Source: Microcaldota archaeon (lineage in GTDB: Archaea; Micrarchaeota; Micrarchaeia; Anstonellales; SKW190). Taken from it: 32,562 bases of DNA. Position 1 is the stretch's first letter. The number at the start of each line of letters is the position of its first letter. The DNA lies in NCBI GenBank assembly GCA_026414265.1, contig JAOAJI010000013.1:1-32562 (forward strand). The letters are read 5' to 3'. The position numbers and the translations under genes are program-made. The notes under the pieces are model-generated. The model ran no database searches and was not told the DNA's origin. It worked only from the letters and a program-made list of their open reading frames with translations. Shown here piece by piece: positions 4,266 to 20,747 of the stretch.

Positions 4266-5003
4266 TCAGGAATGGTAGTCAAATGAAATAGAATAGCATT
4301 TCAAATCTTTATAACTCAGTAATTTTTTAAAGTCATCTAATACCGTAACTTTTACTATCAGCTCGCGCTCAACATCTCTTTCAACTATCTGGTCCAACAA
4401 ATTCGTACCTTTTTTTGATGCACCTGGAGTTGATTTGAGCTCAAGATAGAGCAGATCTACTTCTGAATTAATAGCAAATTCTAGATCATCTAAATTATGG
4501 ACTTTTAGAATGACTTCTTGTGAGTATGAATGCGCTTCATCTATAACATCAAGTAAATCAAATTCTTGATCATCAATCTGCTTTAAGTCCAATATAACTG
4601 CATCTCCGATTCCAAGCTGGGAATAATCCAACACAGGCCAATCCAGAATAGATATGTTATCAAGATTTTTAAGTCTGTTTAAAGAACTCAGAGAAGGCAG
4701 AGGATTAATTATATATGCTGATACATCAATCGCGTTGGTTTTAAAGTAGCTTAATGAATCAATTTCATACTTTTCAATTATATTATTAAAAATACTTGAC
4801 CTATCTAAAGTGGCAGGCAATACATCATGGAACTCAAGGAGTATGTTAAATTTAAGTTTCTGCCTGTTTTCATTCAATTTTTCGATTAAAGACCTCTTTT
4901 GATGCTTCTTGAATTCTTCTATTTCTAAGCCATCAAAAAATTTTGATTTAACTAAGTCTTTTATCAAGCTTACATAACTCTGTGACTCTGTTGAAACAGT
5001 CAT
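4266..5003 (-). CDS. Degenerate TrpC-like TIM-barrel protein, function unknown
   Basis: Not confidently recognised. The order of segments resembles indole-3-glycerol-phosphate synthase: FNILLEF (residues 52-58) at the position of the AEYKR strand, then IIEKYEIDSL, ISILDWPVLDYSQL (117-130) at the MKDF strand, IGDAVILDLKQI (132-143) at the GADTVLLI strand, and VILKVHNLDDLEFAINSEVDLLYLE (164-188) at the LIEI/INSRDL strands. On this alignment the catalytic lysines, the strand-6 glutamate (here Lys167) and the asparagine are lost, so it should not be an active TrpC. The start at 5003 (MTVSTES, 245 residues) is preferred over 5027 because a TATA box sits about 28 nt upstream. It is divergent from the DUF373 gene. 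A regulatory, scaffold or new enzymatic role is possible. Confidence 0.55.
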   Translation of the reverse strand: MTVSTESQSYVSLIKDLVKSKFFDGLEIEEFKKHQKRSLIEKLNENRQKLKFNILLEFHDVLPATLDRSSIFNNIIEKYEIDSLSYFKTNAIDVSAYIINPLPSLSSLNRLKNLDNISILDWPVLDYSQLGIGDAVILDLKQIDDQEFDLLDVIDEAHSYSQEVILKVHNLDDLEFAINSEVDLLYLELKSTPGASKKGTNLLDQIVERDVERELIVKVTVLDDFKKLLSYKDLKCYSISFDYHS

Positions 5004-5007
5004 AGTG

Positions 5008-5016
5008 ATTAAAAAG
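5008..5016 (+). promoter_or_regulatory. TATA box for the DUF373 gene
   Basis: ATTAAAAAG is centred about 28 nt before the ATG at 5040 and lies immediately next to the start codon of the divergent TrpC-like gene. The gene is probably leaderless. Confidence 0.5.
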
Positions 5017-5026
5017 TAAAGCAACA

Positions 5027-5037
5027 TAATTTTAAAC
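5027..5037 (-). promoter_or_regulatory. TATA box for the TrpC-like gene
   Basis: On the minus strand GTTTAAAATTA is centred about 28 nt before the ATG at 5003. It overlaps the alternative upstream ATG at 5027, which argues against that codon being the start. Confidence 0.5.
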
Positions 5038-8675: not shown

Positions 8676-10433
8676 ATGGACCATAAAAATGAAAATAACA
8701 ATGCAGTTAATAACTTCCAAAAAAGTGCAGACATAGATTCTAGTTTTGAAAACTTTAGAGAGCATTCTGTAGCTGAGTTCTTTAAAAAAAACAAACAAAT
8801 GCTAGGTTTCTCAGGAAAAGTAAGGTCCTTGACAACTATAATTCATGAGTATGTTACTAATTCGCTTGATGCTGCAGAAGAAAGAAACATCTTACCAGAA
8901 ATAATTGTCAAAATCCAAGAACTTGAGAAAAATGAGAGGTATCTAGTTACTGTTGAAGATAATGCAGGTGGAATTCCTAAGGAATTCCTTGGCAAAGCTC
9001 TTGGAAAAATTCTGGCTGGAACAAAATTTCACAGGTTTATGCAGGCAAGAGGACAACAAGGGATAGGAGCTGCTGGTTGCACCATGTTCTCATACATTAC
9101 CACTGGAAAACCAATCAAGGCAATTAGTAAGTTCAAAGATTACGTGGTAGAGGCTGAGATCTCAATTGACATCAATCAGAATGAACCAATAATAAAAATA
9201 CTAAGAGAAGATGCAATTTCAGAGAACGAAAAAAGTGGATTGTGTGTAATTGCTGAGTTTGCAGAAGTCAAGTACGAAGAATCTAGCTATGGTGTTCTTG
9301 AATACCTGAAAAGAACTTCTTTAGTAAATCCACATCTTGAAATCCTTTTCTTAGATCCAGAAAATAAAAAGCATCTTTTTCCAAGGTCGAGTAACATAAT
9401 ACCTAAAAGAGCACAAGAAGTACAACCACATCCATTAGGCCTTAACGCTCACGACATCTATGAACTGATAAAAAAAGATAACCAACACAGAAACGTTGAA
9501 AGCACTCTCATAAATTCGTTGGCAAGATTTTCTAAAGCCAAAGCGATAGAAATTCAGCAAATGCTTGATTTTGACTTGAAAATCAGAAAAGAGGACTTTA
9601 CTTGGGAACATGCTAACAAGTTAGTTAATGCAATAAAAAAGGTTAAGTGGATTGCTCCATCCTTGGACAGTGTTGTACCGATAGGAAAAGAACAATTGGA
9701 AAAAGCGATACTCAACATACTGAATCCACAACACTATGCGATAACTGAAAGGGAACCTAAAGTTTACAGAGGAGGAATACCTTTTGTTGTTGAATGCGCT
9801 ATTGCATATGCAAACATTCAGGATAATAATAAAAAAGATTTAGTAGATGCTACTACACAAACTAAAAACGGACAGAAAAAAGCAGAAGTTATGAGGTTTG
9901 CTAATAGAGTTCCTTTGCTTTTTGACGCAGGCAATTGTGCCATAACAGAAGCAGTTAAATCAATAGATTGGAAAAGGTACAATATTGACAACTTTGAAGA
10001 ACAACCTATTACCGTAATAGTAAATGTATCTAGTGTCTTTATACCTTATACTGGAGCAGGAAAACAATCTATTTCTGCTGAAGAAGAAATCGTAAATGAA
10101 ATTAGATTTGCATTGATGGAAAACGCAAGAAATTTACAAAGATTTCTTTCCGGTAGAAGAAGGGAACAAGAGATATTATCAAAAAAGAAAGTTCTTTACA
10201 GGTACGTAGAACAACTGGCAAAAGACATATCTGAACTCTCTGGAAAAAATAACTACAACGAACTCAAAAAGAAACTAGAAGAATTGATTGAAAAAAGATA
10301 TCTTCAGAGCAATAACGTAGAATTATCAGAAGAAGAAATCATGGAAATTGAAAAAGAACTTGAAAGAACTGAAAATCAATCAGAAGTAAAAAAACAAAAA
10401 AAATTATTTGATGAAGAGTCTATAGAAGAATGA
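8676..10433 (+). CDS. top6B: DNA topoisomerase VI subunit B
   Basis: ATPase subunit of the type IIB topoisomerase that relaxes and decatenates DNA. The GHKL fold is visible: IIHEYVTNSLDAAEE (N-box, Asn62), VEDNAGGIP (95-101) and the ATP lid ARGQQGIGAAGC (124-135). The transducer region carries ATTQTKNGQKK and RFANRVPLLFDAG. Length is 585 residues, somewhat longer than the usual ~530, mostly from a charged helical C-terminal tail (from about 490 onward, rich in Lys and Glu). It is followed 60 nt later by top6A, the usual order, although top6A appears to have its own upstream AT-rich element. Confidence 0.97.
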   Translation: MDHKNENNNAVNNFQKSADIDSSFENFREHSVAEFFKKNKQMLGFSGKVRSLTTIIHEYVTNSLDAAEERNILPEIIVKIQELEKNERYLVTVEDNAGGIPKEFLGKALGKILAGTKFHRFMQARGQQGIGAAGCTMFSYITTGKPIKAISKFKDYVVEAEISIDINQNEPIIKILREDAISENEKSGLCVIAEFAEVKYEESSYGVLEYLKRTSLVNPHLEILFLDPENKKHLFPRSSNIIPKRAQEVQPHPLGLNAHDIYELIKKDNQHRNVESTLINSLARFSKAKAIEIQQMLDFDLKIRKEDFTWEHANKLVNAIKKVKWIAPSLDSVVPIGKEQLEKAILNILNPQHYAITEREPKVYRGGIPFVVECAIAYANIQDNNKKDLVDATTQTKNGQKKAEVMRFANRVPLLFDAGNCAITEAVKSIDWKRYNIDNFEEQPITVIVNVSSVFIPYTGAGKQSISAEEEIVNEIRFALMENARNLQRFLSGRRREQEILSKKKVLYRYVEQLAKDISELSGKNNYNELKKKLEELIEKRYLQSNNVELSEEEIMEIEKELERTENQSEVKKQKKLFDEESIEE

Positions 10434-16333: not shown

Positions 16334-17464
16334 CTAATCAATATATTCTCGAAGACCTAAAGGATCTAAGTAAACATCCTGATCGAAACTTTTCACTTCA
16401 TCTAAAACAATATACCCTAAAGCATATAATATGGCACTTAACCTTGCAAAACCTAGTGTCCTGACATGATAAGTCCAATCTACATTGATTTGTCTTTTGT
16501 TAAACCAAACTTCTGGAATTTTTGCTTGTCGGACGTCAATTGCTCCGAGCATCACCTGACTTAAAATTTCTTCAATTTGCTGCTCTTGCTCTATGTGGGA
16601 ATGTCCATGAATGTTTGGAACTTTATGAGATTCTCTGTCGCTAGTAACGATTATGAAAGAAGTAGGTCTATGTGTCAAATGTAAGAAAAAGGTATGAGGG
16701 AGCACTGTACGCACATTTAAATCCTCAGATCTCAGTATTAAAATGGCATGATGAGCAAAATATGGTCTGAACGAATGAAGAAATTTCAAATTTTCATCAA
16801 GGCCTTCATTGTCGCCAGAAACTAGCAAAAAAGCGTCATGAGGCTGAGCAATTTGCATTAAACACTTAATCCATAAAGAAACATCTGTGCTCTTAGAACC
16901 TATGTCTCCAAGAACTACGATCAAAAATCTGCAGTCTCTGTTTTTATATTTAATCAATGTCTCTCTGTGAGAAGCCAAGGTTTGTTGTAGATAAGAGATT
17001 TGACTGTTCAGAAAAGTATCATAGTCTCGAATTATTTTAAAATCTGGGATTCCTAGTTTCCTTAAAATACTTTTTAAAAATTTAAACCTTTCTTTGTCGT
17101 AAAAGTGCAGATCCGAAATAAGCAAGACATCATCAAACGAGCCAAATTCTGTCACGTAATATCTATCAGAGTAAACAATGTAAAGGACAAGCGGAGGATT
17201 ACTGCTTAAAGTTTTGTCTGGACCTACCAAACCTATTTCGAGATTACTAGATAATTTGATAGTAGAATTTTTATGAATTGATGGATCTTGTGAGCGCACA
17301 AAGAAACAGGATCTTGATTCACCATCTTTTTTATTAGATGGAGTAAAAGAAATATGATCTAGCAAAGGAATATCTGCCTCTCTGTTGATAAAGAGTTTTC
17401 CTCCTTGAGTATACTGAACTACTCGCCGCCGTGCGTCGTTTCGTGGTAATTTTTTTACTTGCAC
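16334..17464 (-). CDS. Divergent calcineurin-like metallophosphoesterase with N-terminal extension
   Basis: Numbering here is from the alternative TTG at 17482. Metallophosphoesterase motifs run in order: SDLH at 123-126, LGD at 191-193, SGDNEG at 222-227, HLTH at 268-271 and IHGHSH at 291-296. The third motif normally reads GNHD or GNHE; here it is GDNE, so the metal-bridging asparagine and the catalytic histidine are altered. The first ~115 residues are an uncharacterised extension with a basic start (KLPRNDARRR), and the C-terminus continues about 85 residues past the last motif. The start is given as the GTG at 17464 because a TATA-like box lies about 27 nt upstream; TTG 17482 is the alternative. 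It points toward trxB and diverges from the ankyrin gene. Substrate unknown. Confidence 0.8.
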   Translation of the reverse strand: MQVKKLPRNDARRRVVQYTQGGKLFINREADIPLLDHISFTPSNKKDGESRSCFFVRSQDPSIHKNSTIKLSSNLEIGLVGPDKTLSSNPPLVLYIVYSDRYYVTEFGSFDDVLLISDLHFYDKERFKFLKSILRKLGIPDFKIIRDYDTFLNSQISYLQQTLASHRETLIKYKNRDCRFLIVVLGDIGSKSTDVSLWIKCLMQIAQPHDAFLLVSGDNEGLDENLKFLHSFRPYFAHHAILILRSEDLNVRTVLPHTFFLHLTHRPTSFIIVTSDRESHKVPNIHGHSHIEQEQQIEEILSQVMLGAIDVRQAKIPEVWFNKRQINVDWTYHVRTLGFARLSAILYALGYIVLDEVKSFDQDVYLDPLGLREYID

Positions 17465-17486
17465 AGTACAATATTTAACCAAATAA

Positions 17487-17495
17487 CTTAAAAAG
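17487..17495. promoter_or_regulatory. Near-symmetric TATA element serving two divergent genes
   Basis: CTTAAAAAG read one way and CTTTTTAAG the other. It is about 27 nt from the GTG at 17464 on the minus strand and about 26 nt from a predicted plus-strand start at 17517, just before GTGAT and the ankyrin ATG. One element may therefore drive both genes. Confidence 0.4.
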
Positions 17496-17525
17496 GTGTT
17501 GTTGTAAATATAATAATGTGATGTT

Positions 17526-18554
17526 ATGTTTCAGCGATTCCAAATGCCTGAGTTTAGAAGATTGGAAGAAAGTCAAAAACAGAAAATGAACTCACATGTA
17601 AGGAAATTATTACAGAGCAAAGAGACAAAAGACTTGCTTTTAGATGTAAAAAATGCATTAATGATTAATGATACAGAATTTCTTCACACTTTTTTTTCTG
17701 AGCTAAATAACACTAAAGACACTGAGAAAATTAAGCAGATATATAGAGAGTCTCTGTTTAACTTCTTCTATTACAATGGGTATAACATGCCACTTTTTTC
17801 ATTGATTTGCTCGGAGTATCTCTTTAAATTTAAAAACGATGACATTCACTTAGCCCGTAATGAGCGTGGAGAAACTATATTTCACGTTTGTGCAAGAAAT
17901 TTTTTAAATGATACATTAGAATTCTTAATTAAGTCAAGTTTGTCAAAAAAGACAGTGGTTGAATTATTAAATTCAAGAGATTCTCATAATAACACGCCTC
18001 TTATTACTACTATTCATGCATTCAATAAGCATGCTGCTAAAATATTCTTAGAGAATGGAGCTAATCCAAATGTAAAAGACACTGAAGGTAATTCTTGTTT
18101 GCATGAATGTGCTAAATACGGTAACATTGAAATCGCATTAATGTTAATACAACATAATGCAGATACTGATACAGTTAATAATCAAGGGCAAACGCATCTA
18201 CACATTGCAGCTATTAATGCTCAACCAGAATATCTGATGCATTTCGTGAAGAAAAGTCAAGATTTAACCCAGGAAGACTATCACGGTAAAACAATAATTG
18301 ACTACTTAATCCAAAATGATAATCTCAATGTAGATTTGTTATTGCACTTCAAAAATAAATTCAATTTAGATTTGAATAGCAGAGATAGTAGAGGCAAATC
18401 ATTATTGGTAAATGCAATTAACAACAAAGCATACAATTCAATAACAGCTTTGAAAGAATTAGGTTGCAAACTTTCTCTTTACGATATGGCTCAAGTTAAT
18501 ATATTTAACTTGATACTGTTTTATTTTTATACTCTCTTAAAAAGAGATATATGA
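17526..18554 (+). CDS. Ankyrin-repeat protein with hydrophobic C-terminal tail
   Basis: Protein-protein interaction scaffold of 342 residues. After a helical N-terminal region (1-105), about six ankyrin repeats follow: roughly 111-148, 150-181, 184-215, 218-250, 252-283 and 286-318. The clearest consensus pieces are NTPLITTIHAFNKHAAKIFLENGANPNVKD and NSCLHECAKYGNIEIALMLI. Residues 324-338 (VNIFNLILFYFYTLL) are strongly hydrophobic and end in KRDI, as in a tail anchor. The start at 17526 follows GTGAT by three bases. It lies between two metallophosphoesterase genes that both point away or toward it, with a 13-nt gap to the second. No partner or target can be read from sequence; membrane-attached recruitment of a partner is a reasonable guess. 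Confidence 0.88.
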   Translation: MFQRFQMPEFRRLEESQKQKMNSHVRKLLQSKETKDLLLDVKNALMINDTEFLHTFFSELNNTKDTEKIKQIYRESLFNFFYYNGYNMPLFSLICSEYLFKFKNDDIHLARNERGETIFHVCARNFLNDTLEFLIKSSLSKKTVVELLNSRDSHNNTPLITTIHAFNKHAAKIFLENGANPNVKDTEGNSCLHECAKYGNIEIALMLIQHNADTDTVNNQGQTHLHIAAINAQPEYLMHFVKKSQDLTQEDYHGKTIIDYLIQNDNLNVDLLLHFKNKFNLDLNSRDSRGKSLLVNAINNKAYNSITALKELGCKLSLYDMAQVNIFNLILFYFYTLLKRDI

Positions 18555-18567
18555 TATGATCACAAAG

Positions 18568-19335
18568 TCACTTTTTGGAGAGTTCAATCAATTTGAGTAC
18601 TTCACTTAATTCTAAAGGCTTGTATTCATGAAATTCAAGATTAACGTTTAATGCCCTTTTTTCTTTAAGACGTTTAAGGAGTTCATTTGTATAGTAATCA
18701 ATTGAATATTTTTTGTCTGTTAGAAATCCGTTGTGCGTGTGACCATGTAAATAATATTTATTAGGATTCTTGTAGTTCTTACTAACATCGCTCAATGCAT
18801 GGACCAAAATAAAAGACATTCTATCAAATGTCAAATCAATAACCTTTGGTTTGGAGAATTCTTTAGGATCATGGTTGCCACTTACAATTATCTTGTAACC
18901 GTTTAACTGGTATAAAAAATGTGCTGCGCGAAAAGAATCCTTGTCTACAACTAAATCCCCTAAAATAAATATCAAAGAATTTGCATCAACCTTTTCATTC
19001 CATGATTGAACTATTTTCGTGTCCATTTCGTATACAGAAGAAAAATGTGAATTTCTATAAGTATCGAAAACTGTTGAATCTGAAAAATGTAGGTCAGAAA
19101 TGAAAAAGATCTTCGAAAAATATTTGTAAGCTTCTTGGAAACTAAGAATATGTTGATTTGAGTTTTGATCATAAGACAAATCCAATTTAATTCTAGTATC
19201 GTCAAAAACAATTACTTTCATAGGTTCAATGATTGAAAATTCAAAAAGTTTTCTTGAATTTCGACTATTTTTTGATGTGTTGCTTTCAGTATTATTCCTT
19301 ATGTTGATTCTTCTGATTGTATGCATATCTACCAT
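18568..19335 (-). CDS. Calcineurin-like metallophosphoesterase (YfcE-like)
   Basis: A complete metallophosphoesterase: ISDLHF (Asp and His), LGDLV, SGNHD, a lone histidine in LVHALS, and LHGHTH, in the standard order with all metal ligands present. The C-terminal NVNLEFHEYKPLELSEV block is characteristic of small YfcE/MJ0037-like phosphodiesterases. The first ~75 residues are an extension with a polar, serine/asparagine-rich start. The start is uncertain: 19365 would lie upstream of the likely transcript start given the TTTTTAAAA element near 19367-19377, so 19335 (255 residues) or 19326 is preferred. It converges on the ankyrin gene with 13 nt between. Distantly similar to the gene at 16334-17464, including the strand before SDLH. 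Confidence 0.88.
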   Translation of the reverse strand: MVDMHTIRRINIRNNTESNTSKNSRNSRKLFEFSIIEPMKVIVFDDTRIKLDLSYDQNSNQHILSFQEAYKYFSKIFFISDLHFSDSTVFDTYRNSHFSSVYEMDTKIVQSWNEKVDANSLIFILGDLVVDKDSFRAAHFLYQLNGYKIIVSGNHDPKEFSKPKVIDLTFDRMSFILVHALSDVSKNYKNPNKYYLHGHTHNGFLTDKKYSIDYYTNELLKRLKEKRALNVNLEFHEYKPLELSEVLKLIELSKK

Positions 19336-19397: not shown

Positions 19398-20111
19398 CTA
19401 CCACTTTTCTTTTTTGAACTGGGTTTTAGGGACGTTTAATTTTTCCAATATATTTTCAGTGTGTTGGATTAATTCTAATGGACCACATGAAAAATAGACA
19501 TAGTCTTGTGGGTTTTTAACATACTTGAGTATTGTATTTTCAGACACTCTACCAAGTTCATAACCTTCTACGTTTTCTCGTGTTATGATATAAATTATCT
19601 TAATATTTTTCATCTTATTCGTTATCTGATCAAGTTCATTCTTGAAAGGAATAGAACTCACTGTTCTGTTGGAAAAAAACAAGTAGACATCAGTTGACAA
19701 GTTTTTGTCTCTTATGTACCTCAACATAGACATGAAAGGGGTTATGCCTATTCCACCAGCAACGAATACTACTTTATCGTATTTGTTTTCGTCAAAAATG
19801 AATTCTCCCAATGGTCCAATCATCCTATGTTTTGTGCCTATGCTTTCTTCTGACAGAACCTTTGTAAAACCAGATTCTTTTATTTTAATCGAAAGGTCTA
19901 TGTAATCAAAAAATGGAGATGAACAAATAGAATAGGCACGTGTCTTTCTGAATTCATCTGGCATGCTTGGAACAGTTAATGACACAAACTGGCCAGGAAA
20001 AAAATCAAGTTTCTTGTTGTCTATTCGCCTATATCTGAATGTGATTATATCTTCAGTTTCCTTTATCTTTTCAATCAATTCAACTTCGAAATTCTCAACT
20101 TTTTTCATCAT
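19398..20111 (-). CDS. FAD/NAD(P)-binding oxidoreductase, ferredoxin-NADP reductase family
   Basis: Electron-transfer flavoprotein of 237 residues. The FAD domain shows RAYSICSSP (58-66) and GPLGEF (99-104); the nucleotide domain shows VAGGIGITPFMSML (117-130) and FSCGP (207-211). The lack of an iron-sulfur domain means an external partner such as ferredoxin, rubredoxin or a [2Fe-2S] protein is needed. It begins 6 nt after the translin-family gene on the same strand, with GAGATATT before the ATG pair, so the two are likely one transcript. Direction of electron flow and partner cannot be read. The pairing with an RNase-like protein is unexplained. Confidence 0.88.
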   Translation of the reverse strand: MMKKVENFEVELIEKIKETEDIITFRYRRIDNKKLDFFPGQFVSLTVPSMPDEFRKTRAYSICSSPFFDYIDLSIKIKESGFTKVLSEESIGTKHRMIGPLGEFIFDENKYDKVVFVAGGIGITPFMSMLRYIRDKNLSTDVYLFFSNRTVSSIPFKNELDQITNKMKNIKIIYIITRENVEGYELGRVSENTILKYVKNPQDYVYFSCGPLELIQHTENILEKLNVPKTQFKKEKW

Positions 20112-20117
20112 AATATC

Positions 20118-20747
20118 TCACTCTTTTGAGTCTTTTATTCGCATCTTGTACATAAAAAGCTCACTCTTTGCATGGTCTAGATTAACCCTCATCGTGTCTA
20201 TCTTCTTTCTTAATTCAGGGACCACTGAATCAGAGAACTTGAACAAAGAAACTTCATTGAAGACTTTTTCTATAGTGTTGACACACAACTCTGCAGTTTT
20301 GTAATCATTTTTCAACAAACTATTTAGAGAAAATCTCTTGAGCTCTCCAGTAAAATCGCATAAGCCATAGAAATACGAATCGTATGAAATTTTTATTGGT
20401 AAATCATCATAAATGCAAACTCTCTGTTCCTTTAAAAATACGTAGAATAAGTATGCTTCACAGTATTCTTGTTCTGAAATAATCAAGAAAGATTGAAACC
20501 ACTTTATCTTGTCTATGAGAGATTTCAACTCTTTAATCTGATTCTCTATTTCATTAAATTCTTTCTGAATTTCCAGTGTGTTTACTTTTGAAGGATCTAC
20601 ATGTAAAACTGTGATGATTTTTCCTGCTCTTTTGACAATTTCACGCATTAAGTCAAGGCACTTGGTTTGATGTTCTTCTCTTTCGTTAAATGCTTCTAAA
20701 ATTAATTTCATGTTCTTTGAAAAATCGATAAAATCGCTTTTCTTCAT
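20118..20747 (-). CDS. Translin family protein, Trax-like
   Basis: Helical RNA-binding protein related to translin and its nuclease partner Trax (C3PO). The conserved block YFYGLCDFTGELKR is at 125-138, and SVVPELRKKIDTMRVNLDHAKSEL ends the fold at about 174-197. Residues 92-99 (EQEYCEAY) match the QEY.EA motif that supplies catalytic glutamates in Trax but not in translin, so ribonuclease activity is plausible. Length 209 residues is normal for archaeal members. A TATA-like element about 27 nt upstream points to a leaderless transcript. It is divergent from pyrH and heads a two-gene unit with the FNR-like protein. Confidence 0.85.
   Translation of the reverse strand: MKKSDFIDFSKNMKLILEAFNEREEHQTKCLDLMREIVKRAGKIITVLHVDPSKVNTLEIQKEFNEIENQIKELKSLIDKIKWFQSFLIISEQEYCEAYLFYVFLKEQRVCIYDDLPIKISYDSYFYGLCDFTGELKRFSLNSLLKNDYKTAELCVNTIEKVFNEVSLFKFSDSVVPELRKKIDTMRVNLDHAKSELFMYKMRIKDSKE

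Follow-up and report, generated by a model that had tools for sequence, protein, structure and literature searches.

The window analysed here is a whole contig of 32,562 bp, part of a 1.18-Mb genome distributed over 117 contigs. The original prediction had described an ankyrin-repeat gene bracketed by two metallophosphoesterase genes on the opposite strand, and the three open reading frames and their coordinates were all confirmed. They are named MPE1, ANK and MPE2 below and are listed with the features next to them.

16334..17482, minus strand: MPE1, diverged metallophosphoesterase of 382 aa with a profile match to phrog_547
17483..17525, no strand: A+T-rich gap of 43 bp, read from the sequence, between MPE1 and ANK, whose starts diverge
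17526..18554, plus strand: ANK, ankyrin-repeat protein of 342 aa (PF12796, E = 2.8e-33)
18568..19335, minus strand: MPE2, phrog_547 / COG4186-like metallophosphoesterase of 255 aa with all metal ligands
19398-20111, minus strand: FNR-type flavin reductase, upstream of MPE2 on the same strand
20118-20747, minus strand: translin-family protein, upstream of the FNR gene and on the same strand as MPE2

MPE1 and ANK diverge across the 43-bp gap; ANK and MPE2 are convergent, their stops 13 bp apart. Because of these orientations, transcription of the three genes as one operon is excluded. The gap itself is a possible two-way promoter common to MPE1 and ANK. Upstream of MPE2, the FNR and translin genes follow on the same strand at gaps of 62 bp and 6 bp, respectively, and the shared strand and short gaps point to possible co-transcription of these three genes. 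Codon usage is native for MPE1, ANK and MPE2, and a search for flanking repeats around them found none, on which grounds a foreign or mobile origin was rejected. The genome encodes six metallophosphoesterases. Elsewhere in the window, an ORF of 253 aa adjoining DUF373 (4266-5027) has no Pfam match above the cut-off.

The intact enzyme and its diverged relative

MPE2 matched PF00149 above the cut-off (E = 1e-6) and the phrog_547 profile with E = 1.2e-28, and scored 162 bits against the MPE2-family profile. The metallophosphoesterase motifs are complete and in order: D81/H83, G126-D127, G153-N154-H155-D156, H179 and G198-H199-x-H201. The sole significant solved relative by sequence was 1xm7 (Aquifex aq_1665), the nearest structure for MPE2; the family is presumably COG4186. 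The AlphaFold2 model of MPE2, built from 52 aligned sequences with a mean pLDDT of 75, had the same entry as its best PDB match (E = 5.4e-9). With similarity to phrog_547 over the whole catalytic domain and 1xm7 as the closest fold, MPE2 belongs to the phrog_547 / COG4186-like family and is an ordinary member of it. A literature search found no function assigned to this family. MPE2 would act as a binuclear phosphodiesterase that relies on two divalent metals and on the histidine of GNHD, and its substrates would be phosphodiesters, most likely nucleotides or RNA ends. It should be noted that sequence alone is insufficient to read the substrate specificity of this enzyme class (PMC4222275).

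MPE1 starts at a TTG, giving the 382-aa product; an alternative GTG lies six codons further in, and there is no early ATG. It stays under the Pfam cut-offs (Metallophos_2, E = 0.017) and matches phrog_547 with E = 1.7e-6. Four of the five superfamily motifs are retained (D124/H126, D193, H271 and H294/H296), and residues 223-226 read G-D-N-E where G-N-H-D is expected, in agreement with the earlier description of one enzyme with all metal ligands and another with a changed GNHD/E motif. Among 114 aligned members of the MPE2 family, GNHD occurs in 107, GDHD in two, GNND and GNKD in one each, and GDNE in none. The first change places an aspartate, another possible ligand, in the position of the metal-2 asparagine. 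The second removes the phosphate-binding histidine, with the metal-1 and bridging ligands retained. Because of these two replacements, two outcomes are predicted for MPE1: weak, general phosphodiesterase activity that does not extend to 2',3'-cyclic nucleotides, or no catalysis at all. In a 2008 study cited in PMC4222275, Keppetipola and Shuman reportedly found that loss of the GNHD histidine abolishes 2',3'-cyclic nucleotide activity, and such activity should therefore be lacking in MPE1.

Both enzymes carry long N-terminal extensions, as originally described, although the two are not alike: residues 1-55 of MPE2 are predicted to be disordered, whereas the extension of about 115 aa in MPE1 is predicted, with low confidence, to form a series of strands (residues 1-113). 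The AlphaFold2 model of MPE1 is itself of low confidence (mean pLDDT 62) and has no PDB match, and for these reasons was set aside as evidence of fold. Searches of 301 phylum genomes, GTDB contigs, viral contigs and phage records detected no homologue of MPE1; a viral origin of MPE1 was rejected, there being no homologue in viral or phage sequences.

The strand-rich extension, the low similarity of MPE1 to its relatives and the GDNE motif, absent from all aligned family sequences, would suit a protein that has given up catalysis, serving as a protein-binding scaffold like eukaryotic VPS29 or as a regulator of MPE2. Set against this, MPE1 retains the ligands of D-x-H, GD, His and GHxH, and the single changes GDHD, GNND and GNKD are found in otherwise intact-looking members of the family. 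Moreover, enzymes with GNCD at this position, such as YfcE and MJ0936, are active. We regard a non-catalytic MPE1 of this kind as rather unlikely.

Regarding kinship, a profile of MPE2 with 51 viral homologues was aligned to MPE1 by hhalign from the first motif to HGHSH (probability 90, E = 1.6e-6). MPE1 scored 17.7 bits against the MPE2-family profile and at most 5.9 bits against profiles of the ICC-like, Mre11, DP1 and YfcE-like enzymes of the same genome. The specificity of this match is only moderate, because the ICC-like enzyme reaches 14.9 bits on the MPE2-family profile, near the score of MPE1. Direct comparison of the two proteins by BLASTP gave a best segment with E = 0.024. In the predicted models of both, a helix is inserted between the HGHxH and INV motifs, which would fit common descent without proving it. 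The earlier suggestion that the two enzymes are paralogues thus receives moderate support, the nearest family of MPE1 being that of MPE2 itself, a rare one with members in 10 of 301 phylum genomes. Most likely MPE1 is a diverged duplicate from the family of MPE2; given its divergence from MPE2, a separate origin is possible.

The ankyrin-repeat protein

The PF12796 match of ANK reaches 114.8 bits, where the cut-off is 27.3, and covers several ankyrin repeats, with about 100 aa at the N-terminus lying outside them. For the first 80 or so residues, no convincing orthologue was found in the 301 genomes. The C-terminus, VNIFNLILFYFYTLL (15 residues), is weakly hydrophobic. Its best 19-residue hydropathy is 1.22, under the usual membrane-helix threshold of at least 1.6 and close to the median maximum of 1.29 for sampled ORFs of the same genome; the stretch therefore makes an unconvincing membrane anchor, and the description of ANK as tail-anchored is not established. 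Among the PADLOC anti-phage models, the only matches were ankyrin-repeat ones for ANK, with none for MPE1 or MPE2, and the genes do not fit a known defence system.

Ankyrin genes are numerous in this genome. Approximately 17 ankyrin ORFs are spread over ten contigs, 13 of them exceeding the Pfam cut-off, and ankyrin matches occur in 26 of 59 genomes of the order. For an archaeal genome of 1.18 Mb this is a marked expansion; it involves contigs C22, C28, C40, C94 and C106, with five ORFs on C22 alone. On a further contig of the same genome (C117; L172:7210-9663), some 1.1 kb separates an ankyrin ORF from the gene of a YfcE-like phosphoesterase; a tRNA gene (8906-8977) lies in this interval, which is free of ORFs of 60 codons. 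With a gene total of about 1,195, extrapolated from roughly 33 genes in the 32.6 kb of the window, the chance of an ankyrin gene falling between two tandem metallophosphoesterases is about 17/1195 = 1.4%, a post hoc figure that ignores clustering of ankyrin genes. The layout is uncommon on this estimate, which by itself is no justification for a functional link. ANK belongs to a lineage-expanded ankyrin set and lies between the two enzyme copies on the opposite strand.

Gene neighbourhood in related genomes and viruses

Counting this genome, 10 of the 301 in the phylum have an MPE2-type enzyme. In the other nine loci neither a further member of the family nor any recognisable ankyrin gene was seen, and their contexts are unrelated. 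They include a copy beside Top6A and Pus10, copies with housekeeping neighbours, and fusions to a 2H phosphoesterase domain and to an unidentified N-terminal region. Within these nine hits, that of G216 resembles a metallophosphoesterase of another kind, next to a helicase gene, and that of G012 comes from a genome with 6% contamination, in which its contig is short. The conserved three-gene adjacency that was sought did not emerge: no second MPE1-ANK-MPE2 case was found in the 301 genomes, and a conserved cassette was rejected at the level of the phylum. Because the closest genomes compared share only the order, a cassette confined to the genus or family would have escaped detection. Furthermore, neither MPE1 nor MPE2 was found at 80 Top6A loci of relatives. 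A scan of GTDB contigs for closer relatives reached only 66-75% identity between the Top6A of this genome and those of Micrarchaeota archaea, which places the organism in that group; synteny consists of KH-Top6B-Top6A, plus the next gene in about a quarter of loci. Around members of the MPE2 family in viruses (156 loci, 1.1 Mb, about 150 homologues), no ankyrin ORF was found.

Two apparent parallels were dropped. The ankyrin-like gene beside the MPE2 relative of G023 gave a Pfam E of 0.1 and a profile probability of 1.5, against 0.4 for an unrelated control. In G034/G070 and G020 an ankyrin gene lies near a metallophosphoesterase, and those of G034 and G020, whose enzymes were read, resemble ICC-like and Mre11 proteins and not the MPE2 family. 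The Top6A of G023 (L068:12199-14490), 763 aa with an apparent intein-like insert, adjoins the ankyrin-like ORF and the MPE2-type gene. In G293 (L080:8424-9866) the MPE2 relative carries about 300 additional N-terminal residues, nucleotidyltransferase-like by eye and with no significant Pfam match, beside a helicase-like gene. Two near-identical viral loci (L247:3207-4498 and L248:3207-4498) have two MPE2-family ORFs adjacent in tandem, the sole tandem case.

In G286 (L078:8457-9677) an MPE2 relative has a 2'-5' RNA ligase / 2H phosphoesterase domain (PF13563, E = 2.1e-15) fused at its N-terminus, which may hint at activity of the MPE2 family on RNA ends with cyclic phosphates. Together with the copy beside Pus10 and the closely spaced MPE2, FNR and translin genes on one strand, this fusion would suit an account in which MPE2 works with the translin-family protein in RNA end healing or nucleotide salvage, with ANK and MPE1 as bystanders. 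However, relatives of the FNR and translin genes each occur in a few of the 80 Top6A loci, never together, with MPE2 in none, and the intervening flavin enzyme has no obvious role in RNA. On balance, this account appears unlikely.

Interpretation and comparison with known systems

It had been suggested that the three genes form a membrane-recruited phosphoesterase module. In its more general form, ANK would bind catalytic MPE2 and altered MPE1 and take both to a target or to the membrane. Adjacency speaks for such an arrangement, two members of a rare family flanking one ankyrin gene, as do the starts of MPE1 and ANK, near enough for a promoter region to be common. Nevertheless, the neighbourhood is not conserved and no relative has the layout, MPE1 is without a detected homologue, ankyrins abound in the genome, ANK and MPE2 are convergent, and the ANK tail lies under the membrane threshold. 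The membrane module finds no backing in these results, and a working module of any such kind is very unlikely. More specific still would be a lineage-specific three-part phosphodiesterase complex of this Micrarchaeota family, in which a non-catalytic MPE1 regulates or scaffolds MPE2 with ANK as adaptor; we consider it extremely improbable.

The reading that we favour, and consider probable, is a lineage-specific pair of phosphodiesterase duplicates, one of them diverged, with an unrelated ankyrin gene between them, so that the three genes would be neighbours and no more. It builds on the observed families, motifs and orientation and on the observed absence of a conserved context, from which we infer that the three genes would not act jointly; the duplication, the substrate class and the effect of the motif change are likewise deduced. 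The arrangement looks ordinary: the genes are real, the duplicate is plausible, and there is no evidence for a system.

This result records in Micrarchaeota a rare phosphoesterase family that has no assigned function, together with one strongly diverged relative whose active site is altered; otherwise its value lies mainly in annotation. If the genes did cooperate, they would form a novel phosphodiesterase complex in archaea thought to depend largely on hosts, a group whose ankyrin proteins are suspected of mediating contact with other cells.

Among known systems, the ankyrin-repeat expansions of DPANN archaea provide the counterpart of ANK, which differs from them in its first 80 or so residues. 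VPS29 of retromer has a metallophosphoesterase fold that serves protein contacts and is among the fold matches of MPE2; MPE2 differs in retaining the catalytic histidine, and the MPE1 model does not match VPS29 or any other PDB entry. The residue that distinguishes animal MPPED1 from MPPED2 is the histidine of the GNHE motif. Between that pair and MPE1/MPE2 the likeness is by analogy and lies in the motif change only, MPE1 having the asparagine changed too. The animal proteins are a related metallophosphodiesterase pair told apart by a histidine (PMC10547211). The closest comparison is with the phrog_547 / COG4186-like family and 1xm7. MPE1 resembles it more weakly, from motif 1 to HGHSH, and differs by GDNE in place of GNHD, by a large insertion after motif 1 and by its strand-rich N-terminus. 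MPE2 resembles it throughout the catalytic domain, the full set of ligands and the INVSVE-type motif at the C-terminus included, and differs by about 55 additional disordered N-terminal residues and by the helix inserted after HGHTH.
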